DNA of 45,634 bases from a virus, in the IMG/VR virus record IMGVR_UViG_3300015245_000047, positions 1 through 45,634 of that record, one strand, 5' to 3'. Position 1 is the stretch's first letter. Each line of letters starts with the position of its first letter. The position numbers and the translations under genes were made by a program. The notes below the pieces were generated by a model. The model was not told where the DNA came from and did no database searches. It saw only the letters and a program-made list of their open reading frames with translations. Below, piece after piece: positions 1,754 through 17,578 of this stretch.

Positions 1754-2074
1754 TTAGTGTCCTTGAAATGCTTTCACAATAAACAGAATGGTTAATGCGT
1801 TGGCTAAAATAATAAATGGTGAAACAGCAAAACATACGGCTACCTGCTGCAAGTAAGTCATCGCAGACTTCTTGTCGTCAGGTTTCTTTTCATCAGGCTT
1901 CTTCTTGCCATCTTCAAGTTCCTTCATAATCTTCTGGAACTTCAAGAACTTCTTCATCTCGGATTTGCTCTTAGGAGCAGGCATGAAGACTACACGTTCA
2001 GTAGGGCCAGCCGCCGGAGGATAACCATACATCGGCGGAGGTGCATATGTACTCCATCTGGGATCATAATTCAT
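1754..2074 (-). CDS. Small tail-anchored membrane protein, 106 aa
   Basis: I place the start at the internal ATG (protein MNYDPRWSTYAPP...) because GGGAGAG precedes it at good spacing. The N-terminal extension of the longer frame looks like read-through of noncoding sequence. Order of parts: a Pro/Tyr-rich stretch (residues 1-22), a basic helical Lys/Glu region with DEKKPDDKK, then a C-terminal hydrophobic helix (AVCFAVSPFIILANALTILFIV). It is probably a tail-anchored inner-membrane protein of unknown role. It is the first convincing gene downstream of the long noncoding tract. Confidence 0.75.
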   Translation of the reverse strand: MNYDPRWSTYAPPPMYGYPPAAGPTERVVFMPAPKSKSEMKKFLKFQKIMKELEDGKKKPDEKKPDDKKSAMTYLQQVAVCFAVSPFIILANALTILFIVKAFQGH

Positions 2075-2463
2075 TGCTTCTCTCCCTTTCAGGGGGCAAT
2101 ATTGTTTAACCGAGCTCTTGCGAGGTTGTAAACTAAATGTATTGAGACTGTGGGGAGAGTGGCATAACAGCACCTGTATTAATGCTTGGCGCTCACTCTC
2201 CTCCACCGATGCCCTGTAGTCGCTTAGGGCGGCCGTTTGGGGGCCACGCGGATAATGTCGATCATCTGTCGTCTTCCTCCGCTGTTGGGCAGAAGCAGAA
2301 CATGATCGTACCTCCATGTTGAGACCAGCCTAGGCAAGATTTACCGCCAATATTAAGGTGGGCGAACTAGGCGTTACGGTCGTGTGGCTTTGGACGGATA
2401 CCTGCTTACGACTGATACATGGTTCGGTGGGGACAGAGGTTGTCTTAGGCTGAGAAGTGAGAC

Positions 2464-2664
2464 TCAGCTTCGTCGGTCTCTTATCCTTGCCCACCATTCC
2501 TCAACACCTAAGCTTGGATCAGAGGACGATGGTCGTTCGATATAGTCAGTGTCTTCGTACCTTGGCTGTAGAAGATCCCCCAGTTTATTAAGCATCCCGC
2601 AGACTAAACATTGGGACGGGGGTAGGCCGGTATTTCTAGCCCTACATACATCTTTCAGCTTCAT
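2464..2664 (-). CDS. Doubtful 66-aa frame inside the noncoding tract
   Basis: An ATG frame with some protein-like features: CLVCG in the middle, and an acidic, Trp-containing C-terminus (GVEEWWARIRDRRS). No ribosome-binding site precedes the ATG, there is no coupling with a neighbour, and it lies within the hairpin-dense tract. It may be either a small gene interrupting the tract or chance. I list it only because its composition is better than that of the other frames there. Confidence 0.25.
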   Translation of the reverse strand: MKLKDVCRARNTGLPPSQCLVCGMLNKLGDLLQPRYEDTDYIERPSSSDPSLGVEEWWARIRDRRS

Positions 2665-2812
2665 ACGGCTAATGAGACCGCTGCTTTCCTACTAGATGCA
2701 GTTCTGTCTTACCTTCAGAGGGAGTTAACAGAACTGAAGAGGGACTTTATTCCTGTGTGTTTACCACCCCCATCAAATTAAATCAAGGGGATCTTTTTTC
2801 ACCATCTGCGTG

Positions 2813-2887
2813 TGCTTGCAGAGAGGGACTCGAACCCTCAAGGTTCCCTTTAGGAGAACCACAGGACAGTTTTTCTCATGTCTTGCA
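2813..2887 (-). tRNA. tRNA-like element, degenerate
   Basis: Read on the minus strand, this has a perfect T arm (5-bp GAGGG/CCCTC stem with loop TTCGAGT) and an anticodon-like arm (GTTCT/GGAAC stem around CCTAAAG). It also has a possible D arm (GACA/TGTC) and an acceptor TGCAAGA/TCTGCA that needs a bulged A. The overall length is about right. Against a functional tRNA: C instead of U before the anticodon position, no GG in the D loop, and AGCA rather than CCA after the acceptor. It may be a decayed tRNA or a tRNA-mimic domain of the surrounding RNA. If functional, the anticodon would read TAA (Leu). Confidence 0.4.
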
Positions 2888-4081
2888 CTACCGTGGAGAG
2901 CCATAGAGCTCTACGTCAAAGTCAGTGCCTTACACCTCGGTCACGTCATCTTACTGTACCCTTACAGCAATGAGATCTAGAGGTAGGGGAGTGACGATAC
3001 CCACTCATTCACCATGTTGCACATGGCTGCGTTCGTTCACAGACCTGTCACCACTCAGTAAAGCATGTCCGGAGATCTTTGCCTGTTGCTCCCCGTTGGG
3101 GCTAGGGATTTCCACCATGTCTCGATCATCCAGCTGGGACTCTACCTTAGACCAGCCGTTACCAAAACCTGGGTGGTTACGATCCACATATGCTGGCCAA
3201 GACATCTGCGTTTCCGCTTCACCGCTACCAGTTCACTGCGTCAGTATTTTCATTCCTTCCGGAAGAGGGTACTTTAGCCTTGCAGTCTGTCCATCTACGT
3301 CATGTGCAGGAGCTCTGCGATGTTTACCCCACTGGGTCATCTTGACACAAGGTAGATCGAGAAGAGCAAGCTTAGGAGACGCCCTGCCACCTCTATTTAT
3401 CACCACAGAGATCTTTTGGAAACCCCACAGTCCCGGTCTTCTGCTTATGACTGCAGAAGCACATGCTGTTGAAAGGAGGTTGGCTAGACCTTTAGCCGGG
3501 GGATGGAATATTCCTCTTTACTACCAGAGGGCCACCTTGTCGCCCGTTCCTTCTCCCGCTTATCTGGCGGGTGCTGTTTACTGTCGACGCCTCAAGCGGA
3601 GGCATCACCACAGCATGACCTAAAGCCGAATCAGCCCTAGTCCTAGTTGATACTCCCGTAGATTATACGGGATGACCGCAGACAACTTTCATAACACCTT
3701 TGCACTCCCACCGCTCAGTTCCCTCCTGACTAGCACTGAGACTATCCGGGATCGCACCGGAATGTAGCGGCTTGTATAGGGCTTGCTTGACTGATCTCGT
3801 TGTCACCGTAGGTGTTGTCGGTTAGGTCCTAGCCCACAGAGACGTAGTGCTCTGCTGTGACATCTATTTGATACTCCGCGTATGGGGCAACCGCGGATCT
3901 CCCCGCTTACCTAGGGGCTACTGGGCTTGACACCGCAGGGGTCTCGCGCGCAACTTTGGACATTGTGCACGCACGGGTGGGTTCGCTACGTCCTTCTACG
4001 CGCTCTAAATAGAGGCGCAGGCAACCAGGGTTCTGTCGTCAGAACCAGCGATTTTCTACTACCCCGTGGCTTCATAAGAAG

Positions 4082-4330
4082 CTAAGGAAGTATTTCGAAA
4101 GGTCCCCAAGCTTTCTTAAGCTGGCGTTGGTAAGCTCTAATCCAAATTCTTCTTGCAGTCTGCTCCAGACCTTCCCAAGGATGGTTCTGTCTAGCCGCTT
4201 CGTATATCATCCTTGCATGGATGACTAAGGCCATGTCCGGAGGATTATCAGCCGGACGTAAACCTTTCGCACACACCATGTTCAATGTATGCATCTCAGA
4301 CAACGTCAACGGCTGTTCGTTCGACCACAC
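4082..4330 (-). CDS. Small hypothetical protein, 82 aa
   Basis: I chose GTG at 4330 rather than the GTG seven codons upstream because GAGGAGG lies at ideal distance before it, overlapping the stop of the gene at 4341-4445. The protein is helical, with several Trp, Arg and His residues (HPWEGLEQTARRIWIRAYQRQLKKAW), and has no membrane segment. The family is unknown. It is the last convincing gene before the 2-kb noncoding tract. Confidence 0.7.
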   Translation of the reverse strand: MWSNEQPLTLSEMHTLNMVCAKGLRPADNPPDMALVIHARMIYEAARQNHPWEGLEQTARRIWIRAYQRQLKKAWGPFEILP

Positions 4331-4340
4331 GGTAGCCTCC

Positions 4341-4445
4341 TCAGATGGCACTGCGCCAACGGTTGAAGTATTTGTAAGGAGCCTTCACCTCAACGGGAGG
4401 CAAGCCTTTCGTGCGCGCTATGCGCATCAGTTTCTTGATGTTCAT
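4341..4445 (-). CDS. Basic micro-protein, 34 aa
   Basis: Its ATG overlaps the stop of the YodC-like gene (ATGA), and GGGGAAAC precedes it, so initiation is well supported. The protein is strongly basic (MNIKKLMRIARTKG...), with aromatic residues toward the end (YKYFNRW). It could bind nucleic acid or a host protein; no family is known. Its last codons carry the GAGGAGG ribosome-binding site of the next gene. Confidence 0.6.
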   Translation of the reverse strand: MNIKKLMRIARTKGLPPVEVKAPYKYFNRWRSAI

Positions 4446-6065: not shown

Positions 6066-8039
6066 TTAATGTGTATAAGCCCAGTTAGTCGCGATAGTAT
6101 AGTCTTTAATGTCATCATTGTAAAAGCTTCCTGCCAATGGGCATTTGAGTTTCAACTCTTCACCTACCATTCTAAGTGACTTGGCTTGTGTTTTTGCAAT
6201 CATCAAAGCCACATCCATATTGTTCTTACACTCGGTTTGCCATTCATCATGAACGAAATTAACAAACTTCCAGTCATCTCCAATAATATCTGGAAACTTA
6301 TTAAACTGATTGTGCCACAGTAAAGTGGCCTTCTTCATTATCACAGCCTCTCCATTCTGTAGATACCCAGACATACAGAGATGTCTCCGTTCAGAGACTG
6401 TCTCGCCGGGAATACGAACGGTGCGTCCGTCAAGGCCCACGAACCATCCCCTCTTAGCGTCAGAGGGAATTGTACTTTCTTTAAGATCGGTGAAGCCTTG
6501 GTATCTATCCATGAGGCGTGCAAGTGCGCTCCTAGCCTCGTCCTCGGAACATCCCAGGATTTCACCCAGTTTGCCAAGTCCTGCTCCCAGAAGTAGAGCG
6601 TAGATAAAACGCTTTGCCGCTTGTCGACTCTTGCAGACAGGACCAAGAATTCGTGCGTTGAGTGAATGTGGGTCACTTTTGTCTTCCTTCTTCCCGTCTA
6701 CCAGAGCTTTGGTGAACTCATGATCATCAATGTAGTGAGCAAAGATACGTAACTGAATGCCTTCTGCATCTACTCCAACAAGGAGACGGTTCTTTGGAGC
6801 ACACCATAAAGAACGCATCTCCTTGCCGAGTAGTTTCTTCTTGCCGAAGGTATCTAACTCATTGGGGATGTTGGCTGTGTTTGGCCGTTGGTGAGCCATA
6901 CGGTGAGTCCACGCACCAATTCCGAGAAACTTACCGTGGATACGATCCTGGTCAACCAAACTCAGCCATTCAGTGAGGGTGCGCCTCCTGCTTTCAAAGA
7001 GGATACGCTGTGCCAGGGTTCTGGCGGGGGCGGGGGCATCTTTAGGCAATGTATTTAAATTATTCTCGTTGACCTTCCAGCCAACCTTCCTCATCCTTAA
7101 TAAACCATCATAGCATGCCGCACGGTCTATGTCAAACGAGCTATCTCGGTTTCTACTCCAGTCTAGCCTCGCAAGCTCTCGCTCTGCATCTAGGTGGGTC
7201 TTCGTTTTGTCTATAGGCTTCCACTGAGCTTCGTTTAAGACTTCGATAATCTGCTTATGGCTGGAAAGATTAAACTCTACTTGCTTCGTGAGTTTATATA
7301 CTTTGTCAGCCTCGTATAGATGGATGTTTTCATGTAAGGACCTAGGTACACTCGTCCGGGATATAGTTCCGTGTTTAGTAAGCTTTGGAGTGAACTCTCG
7401 GATGGTGACAGTTTTCGGTGGGAATTCTTTAAGTATTGCTTCATCTAATATCGCTAGCTCTTCGGCTACTTTCTCTAAGAGATTAGAAGCTTTAGCAGTA
7501 TTAAAAGCAAAGCCATTATCGTGCAGGCTATTAACCACGAGCTGGAATTGATGTTCCAGTTTAATAGCTTCAAGATGAGTTGGGTTAGTAATAAAGCTAT
7601 AGTGCCTGCGATATACCCGCTCACAAATATCAACATCTCTGACACAGTAGTCCTCCATCTCTTGTGAGTATTGTTTGAAGTCGTTGAACTTAATCTTAGG
7701 TTCTCCGAACTCCAAACCATACTGCTCTATCGAATGACCTCCAGTACGCGAGTAGTCCACAAGTCTTGAAACGATAAGGGTATCGATGGAACAGTCAGCG
7801 ACAGTAGGAAGATCAAGACCAATAAGACGGTTGAGTATAGGATAATCATATTCAAGCCAGTTGTGACCGATCCAGAGCGTGACGTTCTTGGATAGTTTAA
7901 GAAATCGGTCAGTATCCGCTTCGTTCTCCGTTGGGCGGAAGACATGCATCTCTCCTGTGTCTAAGTCCTTGCAGACTATACACCAGATCTTAGATGGCTT
8001 AACCAAGCTATTGGTCTCAATATCAATTACTAATCTCAA
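6066..8039 (-). CDS. Family A DNA polymerase with 3'-5' exonuclease (T7 gp5-like), 657 aa
   Basis: This is the replicative polymerase. The N-terminal proofreading domain has VIDIETNSL (Asp6, Glu8), GHNWLEYDYPIL (about residue 58) and YCVRDVDICERVY (about 130). The polymerase domain has motif A LVGVDAEGIQLR (about 421), motif B AAKRFIYALLLGAGLGKLGE (about 475), and motif C NFVHDEWQTE with the HDE triad (about 597). Length is slightly below T7 gp5 (704). Unusual residues: motif A has Gln where many family A enzymes carry the steric-gate Glu. In motif B the Tyr equivalent to E. coli Tyr766 is Leu, while the 762 equivalent is Tyr. The ATG overlaps the upstream stop (8036-8039). Confidence 0.97.
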   Translation of the reverse strand: MRLVIDIETNSLVKPSKIWCIVCKDLDTGEMHVFRPTENEADTDRFLKLSKNVTLWIGHNWLEYDYPILNRLIGLDLPTVADCSIDTLIVSRLVDYSRTGGHSIEQYGLEFGEPKIKFNDFKQYSQEMEDYCVRDVDICERVYRRHYSFITNPTHLEAIKLEHQFQLVVNSLHDNGFAFNTAKASNLLEKVAEELAILDEAILKEFPPKTVTIREFTPKLTKHGTISRTSVPRSLHENIHLYEADKVYKLTKQVEFNLSSHKQIIEVLNEAQWKPIDKTKTHLDAERELARLDWSRNRDSSFDIDRAACYDGLLRMRKVGWKVNENNLNTLPKDAPAPARTLAQRILFESRRRTLTEWLSLVDQDRIHGKFLGIGAWTHRMAHQRPNTANIPNELDTFGKKKLLGKEMRSLWCAPKNRLLVGVDAEGIQLRIFAHYIDDHEFTKALVDGKKEDKSDPHSLNARILGPVCKSRQAAKRFIYALLLGAGLGKLGEILGCSEDEARSALARLMDRYQGFTDLKESTIPSDAKRGWFVGLDGRTVRIPGETVSERRHLCMSGYLQNGEAVIMKKATLLWHNQFNKFPDIIGDDWKFVNFVHDEWQTECKNNMDVALMIAKTQAKSLRMVGEELKLKCPLAGSFYNDDIKDYTIATNWAYTH

Positions 8040-16851: not shown

Positions 16852-16935
16852 TGGTGCCTGCTGCCGGAGTCGAACCGGCACGCTTGCGCAAGGGATTTTA
16901 AGTCCCTCTCGTCTACCAGTTCCGACAAGCAGGCA
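16852..16935 (-). tRNA. tRNA-Leu (anticodon UAA)
   Basis: A full cloverleaf can be drawn on the minus strand: acceptor GCCTGCT/AGCAGGC, a D arm with TCGG and the AACTGGTAG loop, and anticodon arm AGGGA-CTTAAAA-TCCCT reading UAA. A long variable arm (TGCGCAAGCGT) typical of Leu tRNAs, T arm GCCGG-TTCGACT-CCGGC and an encoded CCA complete it. Its 5' end directly abuts the stop codon of the NYN gene, so it must be excised from a joint transcript. Confidence 0.96.
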
Positions 16936-17493
16936 CTAAGTACCAAACTGAATAGGTTCTTCTCTAAGAGATTCTCTGAAAGGGTAGAGGATCTTCGGTG
17001 CTACCAACTCACTGATATCAAAGAACTCATCTGCCTGTCGACGGAGTTCATCAGCAAGCATGGAAGGTTTTGTCTTGATGGTGGAACAAACAGTCACGTA
17101 TACACCAAGCTTCTGGAGGTTGTCCACCAAATAGGTGAAGTCTCCATCTCCAGTGAACAGCATGATGTGGTCTACATGCTTTGCCATCAGCATCGCATCC
17201 ACCACCATCTCCACATCCATATTACCCTTTACCTTCATCCTTCCAGTATCTTGATTCAAGAACTCTTTGGTATCTTTCACGTTCATGGTGAAACCGTTGT
17301 ACTCCAACCAATCACACAGCCTGATAATAGGATTGTCGTCTTGATTGGGACGAATGGCAGTGTAGTAATATGCACGAAATAGGCCACGCTCCCTCTTCAA
17401 CCATTCAAGCAATAGCTTGTAGTTAATGGTAAAACCAAGGTTCTTTGCGGAAGCATAGAAGTTCGAACCATCGATGAAAGCTGCGGTCTTCAT
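16936..17493 (-). CDS. NYN-domain (LabA/DUF88-like, PIN-fold) RNase-like protein, 185 aa
   Basis: The NYN fold is clear: KTAAFIDGSNFYASAK with the first catalytic Asp (residue 8) and Asn, KGNMDVEMVVDAMLMA with further Asp, and MLFTGDGDFTYLVDNLQKLG with the last acidic cluster. Eukaryotic and bacterial NYN proteins are metal-dependent RNases; LabA-type members in phages are often next to RNA-processing genes. The start is ATG 17493 with CAGGAGCACAC. Its stop abuts the tRNA-Leu gene. It ends EEPIQFGT (shared Phe-Gly tail). Host or phage RNA or tRNA may be the substrate, by inference. Confidence 0.88.
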   Translation of the reverse strand: MKTAAFIDGSNFYASAKNLGFTINYKLLLEWLKRERGLFRAYYYTAIRPNQDDNPIIRLCDWLEYNGFTMNVKDTKEFLNQDTGRMKVKGNMDVEMVVDAMLMAKHVDHIMLFTGDGDFTYLVDNLQKLGVYVTVCSTIKTKPSMLADELRRQADEFFDISELVAPKILYPFRESLREEPIQFGT

Positions 17494-17578
17494 AGTGTGC
17501 TCCTGTTGAATCGACCTGTCATAGTGCAGAAAGAGCCTCAGCCAGCGCGCAGGGGAGTACGCACCAACTGAGGCTCTC

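Follow-up and report, generated by a model that had tools for sequence, protein, structure and literature searches.

A putative long structured RNA with tRNA-like modules between the DNA polymerase and exonuclease genes of uncultured T7-like podoviruses

Introduction

To our knowledge, only a handful of RNA classes above 1 kb have been described in phages. GOLLD is frequently found in or near phage tRNA islands; it accumulates during phage infection and forms a 14-mer nanocage. Bacterial Y RNAs (YrlA) and tmRNA carry a T-arm and further tRNA-like arms inside a larger RNA, and OLE and HEARO are large ornate RNAs of bacteria. GOLLD RNAs are long (many over 800 nt), ornate and phage-encoded, with a conserved and a less conserved part and sometimes with tRNAs within; ROOL is a large phage RNA with a multi-branched covarying structure and no protein partner identified, and both are RNA-only cages (PMC12286853).

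Here we analyze a tract in an uncultured T7-like podovirus (an IMG/VR virus record of 45.6 kb, the whole of which is called the window below). Like GOLLD, the tract would encode a long, ornate, phage-encoded RNA, and like ROOL a large one with a multi-branched covarying structure; it differs from both in having no Rfam match. It also differs from GOLLD in having no tRNA cluster nearby and no complete tRNA inside (in the window), in its much faster sequence turnover and in its conserved boxes, and from ROOL in lying away from tRNA islands. OLE and HEARO are similarly large and ornate, whereas the tract does not match their Rfam models and is found in the replication locus of a T7-like phage. 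As in YrlA and tmRNA, a T-arm and other tRNA-like arms would be built into a larger RNA, but there is no acceptor stem, CCA end, tag ORF, or Rfam or ARAGORN match, and more than 1 kb of extra structure is present. Large phage RNAs are thus already known; what is new here, as judged by sequence comparison, is that no sequence shared with the catalogued members is detectable and that the class is found at one locus of one phage group. It is also marked by quick turnover and by tRNA-like modules. We found no description of such a class in the open-access literature, which is weak evidence, most subscription papers and preprints being outside the scope of that search.

Results

Gene context and coding potential of the tract

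The left arm of the window is transcribed leftward and carries the replication genes, including a primase-helicase, a T7-type DNA polymerase (6066-8039), an exonuclease-like protein (887-1747; named from synteny with annotated relatives, without a Pfam match) and endonuclease I (303-647; PF05367). The tract (4081-2075) lies between the polymerase side and the exonuclease/endonuclease I side of this arm. The minus strand is judged to be the RNA strand because of the polarity of the conserved elements described below. Between the tract and the exonuclease gene, 1754-2074 (minus strand) encodes a small protein that is rich in Lys and Asp and has a transmembrane-like stretch at its C-terminus; most relatives have a gene of similar size at this place, and tblastn finds no sequence relative of it. 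Elsewhere on the minus strand, a uracil-DNA glycosylase superfamily protein (PF03167; 11451-12125) is found in the replication arm, and a protein weakly matched by the gamma-glutamyl cyclotransferase/AIG2-like family (PF06094; 13864-14634) lies between the primase-helicase and a large protein without assigned function.

A preliminary description of this DNA, made from the letters alone, had reported no frame with a ribosome-binding site in 2075-4081. We likewise see no convincing gene, except that a micro-ORF of 13 codons (MIDIIRVAPKRPP and a stop; 2265-2224, minus strand) has a GGAGG-type ribosome-binding site. The idea that the tract is protein-coding, through small overlapping or antisense genes, could draw on a plus-strand frame that stays open for 232 aa (2925-3623) and on the upstream extension of the frame at 1754-2317. 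Against these stand the stops in all three coding-strand frames (27, 39 and 43, with a longest open stretch of 94 codons), the absence of Pfam matches for the antisense frame and for the 187-aa frame running into the tract, the lack of a tblastn relative of the antisense frame among the loci fetched, and the insertions of any length that separate the conserved boxes in relatives. This evidence contradicts a coding tract, the micro-ORF excepted, and we give that reading almost no credence.

The C-terminus APKRPP-stop of the micro-ORF is also found at the corresponding place in three relatives (L024, L061 and L099, making four loci with the window), with synonymous third-position changes; in these relatives some 380-490 nt separate the ORFs from the exonuclease gene downstream. 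Its Pro-Pro-stop end suggests a ribosome-stalling regulatory peptide. As the micro-ORF is at 2265-2224, the RNA probably ends before about 2290; its 5' limit (about 4081) is taken from the end of the ORF at 4082-4351. The putative long structured RNA would therefore span about 4081 to 2290 on the minus strand, with both ends uncertain; this segment has no convincing gene, corresponds in position to a gap in relatives, and contains motifs of the family.

With such a peptide at one end, the tract could instead be a cis-regulatory leader, i.e. a long, structured untranslated region that controls how the genes after it (membrane protein, exonuclease and endonuclease I) are transcribed or translated, with stalling at the micro-ORF. 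Where relatives have the whole locus, the tract immediately precedes those genes, the Pro-Pro-stop end comes with a ribosome-binding-site match in four phages, and in cluster A a stable hairpin lies near the gene that follows. We nevertheless regard a leader as quite improbable: a covarying multi-domain structure of 1.3-2 kb far exceeds what a leader needs, and the micro-ORF is found in four loci only. Scanning the minus strand for sigma-70 promoters and terminators gave no signal, with fewer promoter-like sites than in shuffles and no terminator-like site.

Hairpins and folding of the tract

The tract had been described as a hairpin-dense 2 kb, and the five inverted repeats quoted for it (4029-4046, 3875-3897, 3655-3671, 3438-3459 and 2699-2736) are all where they had been placed. 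The density holds for short perfect hairpins in 2750-4081, where 17 hairpins of at least 5 bp are found as compared to 7.5 +/- 2.7 in shuffles (0 of 100 shuffles reach this number); GGUUCUGACGACAGAACC (4029..4046, minus strand), near the 5' end, is among them. It does not extend to 2075-2749 (1 hairpin vs 3.7 expected) or to folding energy, which, computed over 150 nt at a time, does not fall below that of shuffles or of the flanks (mean z -0.58 for the tract and -0.61 for the flanks). As folding energy is ordinary, the term is true for short perfect hairpins only. On the plus strand, a C4/G4 inverted repeat with six consecutive Ts after it (2768-2806) looks like a terminator for plus-strand transcription; seen by eye and absent from the list of the terminator scan, it falls inside the putative minus-strand RNA.

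Comparison with known RNA families and tRNAs

The preliminary description had proposed a member of the GOLLD or ROOL type or a new class. Membership of GOLLD or ROOL found no support at gathering or permissive thresholds: no Rfam 15 family reached its gathering score in the whole window or in ten relatives, and permissive searches (E up to 10 for the tract, E up to 1 for six relatives) gave only chance matches to unrelated families, with no GOLLD, ROOL, OLE, HEARO or group I or II intron among them. None of these is therefore supported for the window or its relatives. The new-class option fares better, given the conserved position, the covariation in relatives and the family motifs in the window.

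Of the tRNA-like element that had also been noted, a perfect T-arm is present (2839-2823), but it is not part of a cloverleaf with an acceptor stem, and neither ARAGORN nor Rfam matches a tRNA or tmRNA in the tract. We also considered ordinary tRNAs missed by ARAGORN and dropped them: reading by eye, we saw no complementary acceptor strand around the T-arm of the window, and the Rfam tRNA model has no match even at E = 10. The sole tRNA that ARAGORN finds in the window is a tRNA-Leu (16852-16934), 13 kb from the tract, and no tRNA cluster is near the tract. Adjoining this tRNA gene is an NYN-domain protein (16936-17517, minus strand; PF01936, E 4e-33), a predicted ribonuclease of PIN-like fold.

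A coding-free stretch at the same position in relatives

Searching with the polymerase gave 76 loci and an exonuclease profile gave 80, with contigs partly shared; once duplicates are removed, 81 IMG/VR loci, counting the window, reach far enough upstream to be measured. The coding-free stretch before the exonuclease has a median of 1,491 nt and is at least 1 kb long in 64 of the 81 loci, as compared to 0 of 23 control regions upstream of the polymerase. By the same measure the window has 1,587 nt between polymerase and exonuclease. Some relatives have a gap of only 500-900 nt, which counts against the explanation preferred below. At L067, L070, L073, L076 and L077 some 300-380 bases interrupt the polymerase match, which suggests an intron or other insertion in the gene.

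Among the cultured relatives that we looked at (Zobellviridae and Cobavirinae, the latter with CRP-5 and ICBM2; also CRP-9), CRP-5 and ICBM2 have no such gap because genes, including thymidylate synthase, fill the polymerase-exonuclease interval. In the bacterial and archaeal genomes searched, neither an exonuclease relative nor the exact pattern of the conserved box turned up. When the whole tract of the window was compared by blastn with cultured phages and with its relatives, the outcome was nothing or short patches only. The putative class is located, as far as these genomes tell, between the DNA-polymerase and exonuclease/endonuclease-I blocks of uncultured T7-like podoviruses.

Covariation in alignable relatives

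Nine loci can be aligned with each other (alignment A2), and they show long invariant patches with variable stems between them; the window is too diverged to align full-length and is not in this alignment. The consensus fold has 93 pairs, 94.1% of cells being paired, and 41 of the pairs are changed on both sides; these are the compensatory changes that the preliminary description had said should be sought among homologous tracts. None of 500 shuffles was as good, in a control (a) that does not keep relatedness and with a structure that came from the same alignment, and sliding the partners by 1-3 columns left 33-47% paired. Because of these two properties, the count of double changes bears most of the argument. 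Long-range helices (columns 158-170 with 525-535, and 197-212 with 499-519) enclose two T-arms and a hairpin that resembles an anticodon arm. Judged by its covariation, the tract in these nine relatives is a genuine structured RNA.

Hairpins with 7-nt loops are frequent across the tracts (556 vs 284-325 in shuffled tracts), and a few exact loop words are enriched. Intramolecular kissing partners of the loops CUCAUUA, CAGAUUA/CAGAUAA and CUGUCUA/CUGUUUA were not found above the level of shuffles or of non-carriers; a simple kissing-loop architecture, in which each conserved loop would pair with a sequence elsewhere in its tract, is therefore unsupported.

A tRNA-like module shared by divergent phages

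Iterated profile searches led to a module found in 27 divergent phages. It opens with a G-rich stretch followed by ACGCA or AUGCA; next come a hairpin (loop GUG[C/A]AA), the letters (A)AUG and lastly a T-arm, whose loop is UUC[A/G]ANY, UGCAAGY or, in several phages, GUCGAGC. The arrangement recalls a tRNA's 3' two thirds, with D-loop GG, anticodon arm and T-arm, the acceptor stem being absent. Over the 27 sequences 95.5% of the cells are paired, all 9 pairs have double changes, and 74 cells are double-changed as compared to 18.6 after shuffling. In several relatives the T-arm is swapped for other closed hairpins and the rest of the module is kept.

Tandem tRNA-like arms at a spacing of 60-120 nt in some relatives would fit what is left of a tRNA array after decay, its T-arms and anticodon arms surviving as fossils. 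Decay, though, would not yield covariation, and compensatory changes keep the stems across the 27 divergent phages, with helices that are not tRNA-like covarying just as strongly; a decayed array is therefore contradicted, and we consider it very improbable.

The window has its own copy of the module at 3042-2987 (minus strand; recognized by model R1 and alignment A5): ACGCA, the hairpin GCCAUG[UGCAA]CAUGGU, GAAUG, and a hairpin GAGUG...CACUC in place of the T-arm. The copy is diverged, its second hairpin lacks the T-loop, and its R1 score (6.4 bits) is weak alone. A strict module pattern, composed after the match in the window was known, is found in 18 of 73 tracts and in 0-1 of 73 shuffled ones.

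Conserved box, T-arm and loop words in the window

The conserved box of the family, written CGGUGACA(G)ACGWGAUCAGUC, is found in the window as CGGUGACAACGAGAUCAGUC (3789..3808, minus strand), two edits from the consensus CGGUGACAGACGWGAUCAGUC (two edits from CGGUGACAGACGUGAUCAGUC). Its ends form a 3-bp helix (GAC/GUC, GGC/GCC or CGC/GCG) that is paired in 19 of 19 sequences and in which two pairs covary; the window is included and retains complementary GAC/GUC ends. Because the window is in no alignable cluster, covariation with the window included rests on this helix. Among 2.9 million viral contigs, the exact box pattern is present in 11, all from the same phage group.

A perfect tRNA-type T-arm, GAGGG-UUCGAGU-CCCUC (GAGGGTTCGAGTCCCTC; 2823..2839, minus strand), is preceded by the hairpin GGUUCUCCUAAAGGGAACC; R1 scores 20.0 bits here (2865-2820), and the exact 11-mer GGTTCGAGTCC is found in 27 of 73 tracts. 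Two loop words are also present on the minus strand. The hairpin CCCGCCAGAUAAGCGGG (3555..3571) carries GCCAGAUAAGC (3568-3558), an instance of the family loop motif GCCAGAU[U/A]AGC, which is seen with free stems in 8 + 8 of 73 tracts (any 11-mer in shuffles: at most 4). The hairpin loop motif GUCUCAUUAGC (2668..2678), with the anticodon-loop-like CUCAUUA, occurs unchanged in 16 of 73 tracts, where no more than 4 would be expected.

The relatives keep their short boxes in a largely unchanged order. The order box-module-T-arm in the window is that of L139 and L146, and wherever box and module are both recognized (three tracts: the window, L139 and L146) the box comes first. The positions of some loop words relative to the module vary among lineages, which counts against the explanation preferred below. 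With a stricter local alignment (a very lenient version was uninformative), the best whole-tract match of the window is L096, with a score of 750, as compared to 621 for the highest of 82 null scores. By its box, module, T-arm and two loop words, the window belongs to the putative family as a diverged member.

Discussion

The tract very probably represents a structured RNA class, given its conserved position, covarying relatives and shared motifs. We lean towards a fuller reading, in which it encodes a long, highly structured non-coding RNA (about 1.3-1.8 kb), a diverged member of an undescribed fast-evolving class that would act in trans as an architectural RNA. The RNA would be made together with the replication genes and would fold by itself into a multi-domain particle, with the T-loops serving as internal docking elements, like the T-loop/D-loop elbow of tRNA. 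The particle may then act in trans as an architectural RNA, as proposed for GOLLD and ROOL. A turnover far above that expected of GOLLD or ROOL counts against this explanation, as do the ordinary folding energy of the tract in the window, the missing support for kissing loops, the low R1 score of the module there and the place of the window outside every alignable cluster. For the architectural mode itself, our confidence stays a little short of even. It is preferred because some phages put another loop in the place of the T-loop and keep the module otherwise, an exchange that recognition by an enzyme would not easily allow and that favours a structural role of the T-loop.

The main rival is a tRNA-mimic decoy, in which T-arms and anticodon-like loops would occupy host proteins that bind or cut tRNAs (e.g. 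anticodon nucleases or tRNA-modifying enzymes) and so protect the infection. Known phage tRNAs include some that escape defence directed at tRNAs (PMC10264068, PMC11555353). Many tracts contain 1-4 canonical T-arms, 7-nt loops such as CUCAUUA, CUGUCUA, CUGUAAA and GUCCAAA have U33-like and A38-like bases, the module resembles tRNA-Cys/Phe (loop UGCAA or UGAAA) beside a T-arm, and the tract of one relative weakly matches phage tRNA-Cys genes in blastn. A decoy nevertheless appears unlikely to us: no cloverleaf, acceptor stem or CCA end was found, the loops retain closing pairs (GU-loop-GC) that genuine anticodon arms can do without, U is common at position 37, and several relatives replace the T-loop within the same module. 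A broader formulation, an RNA of at least 1 kb with tRNA-like elbow modules that acts in trans as a tRNA-mimicking particle, whether architectural or decoy, is one that we put forward tentatively, with clear reservations.

A structured RNA class with fast turnover, a fixed genomic place and recognizable tRNA-like modules would offer a handle on the roles of large RNAs, and its module points to testable partners, namely tRNA-handling proteins, the ribosome and anticodon nucleases. Fast-evolving large RNA classes of this kind can escape Rfam and BLAST and yet emerge from position and covariation.
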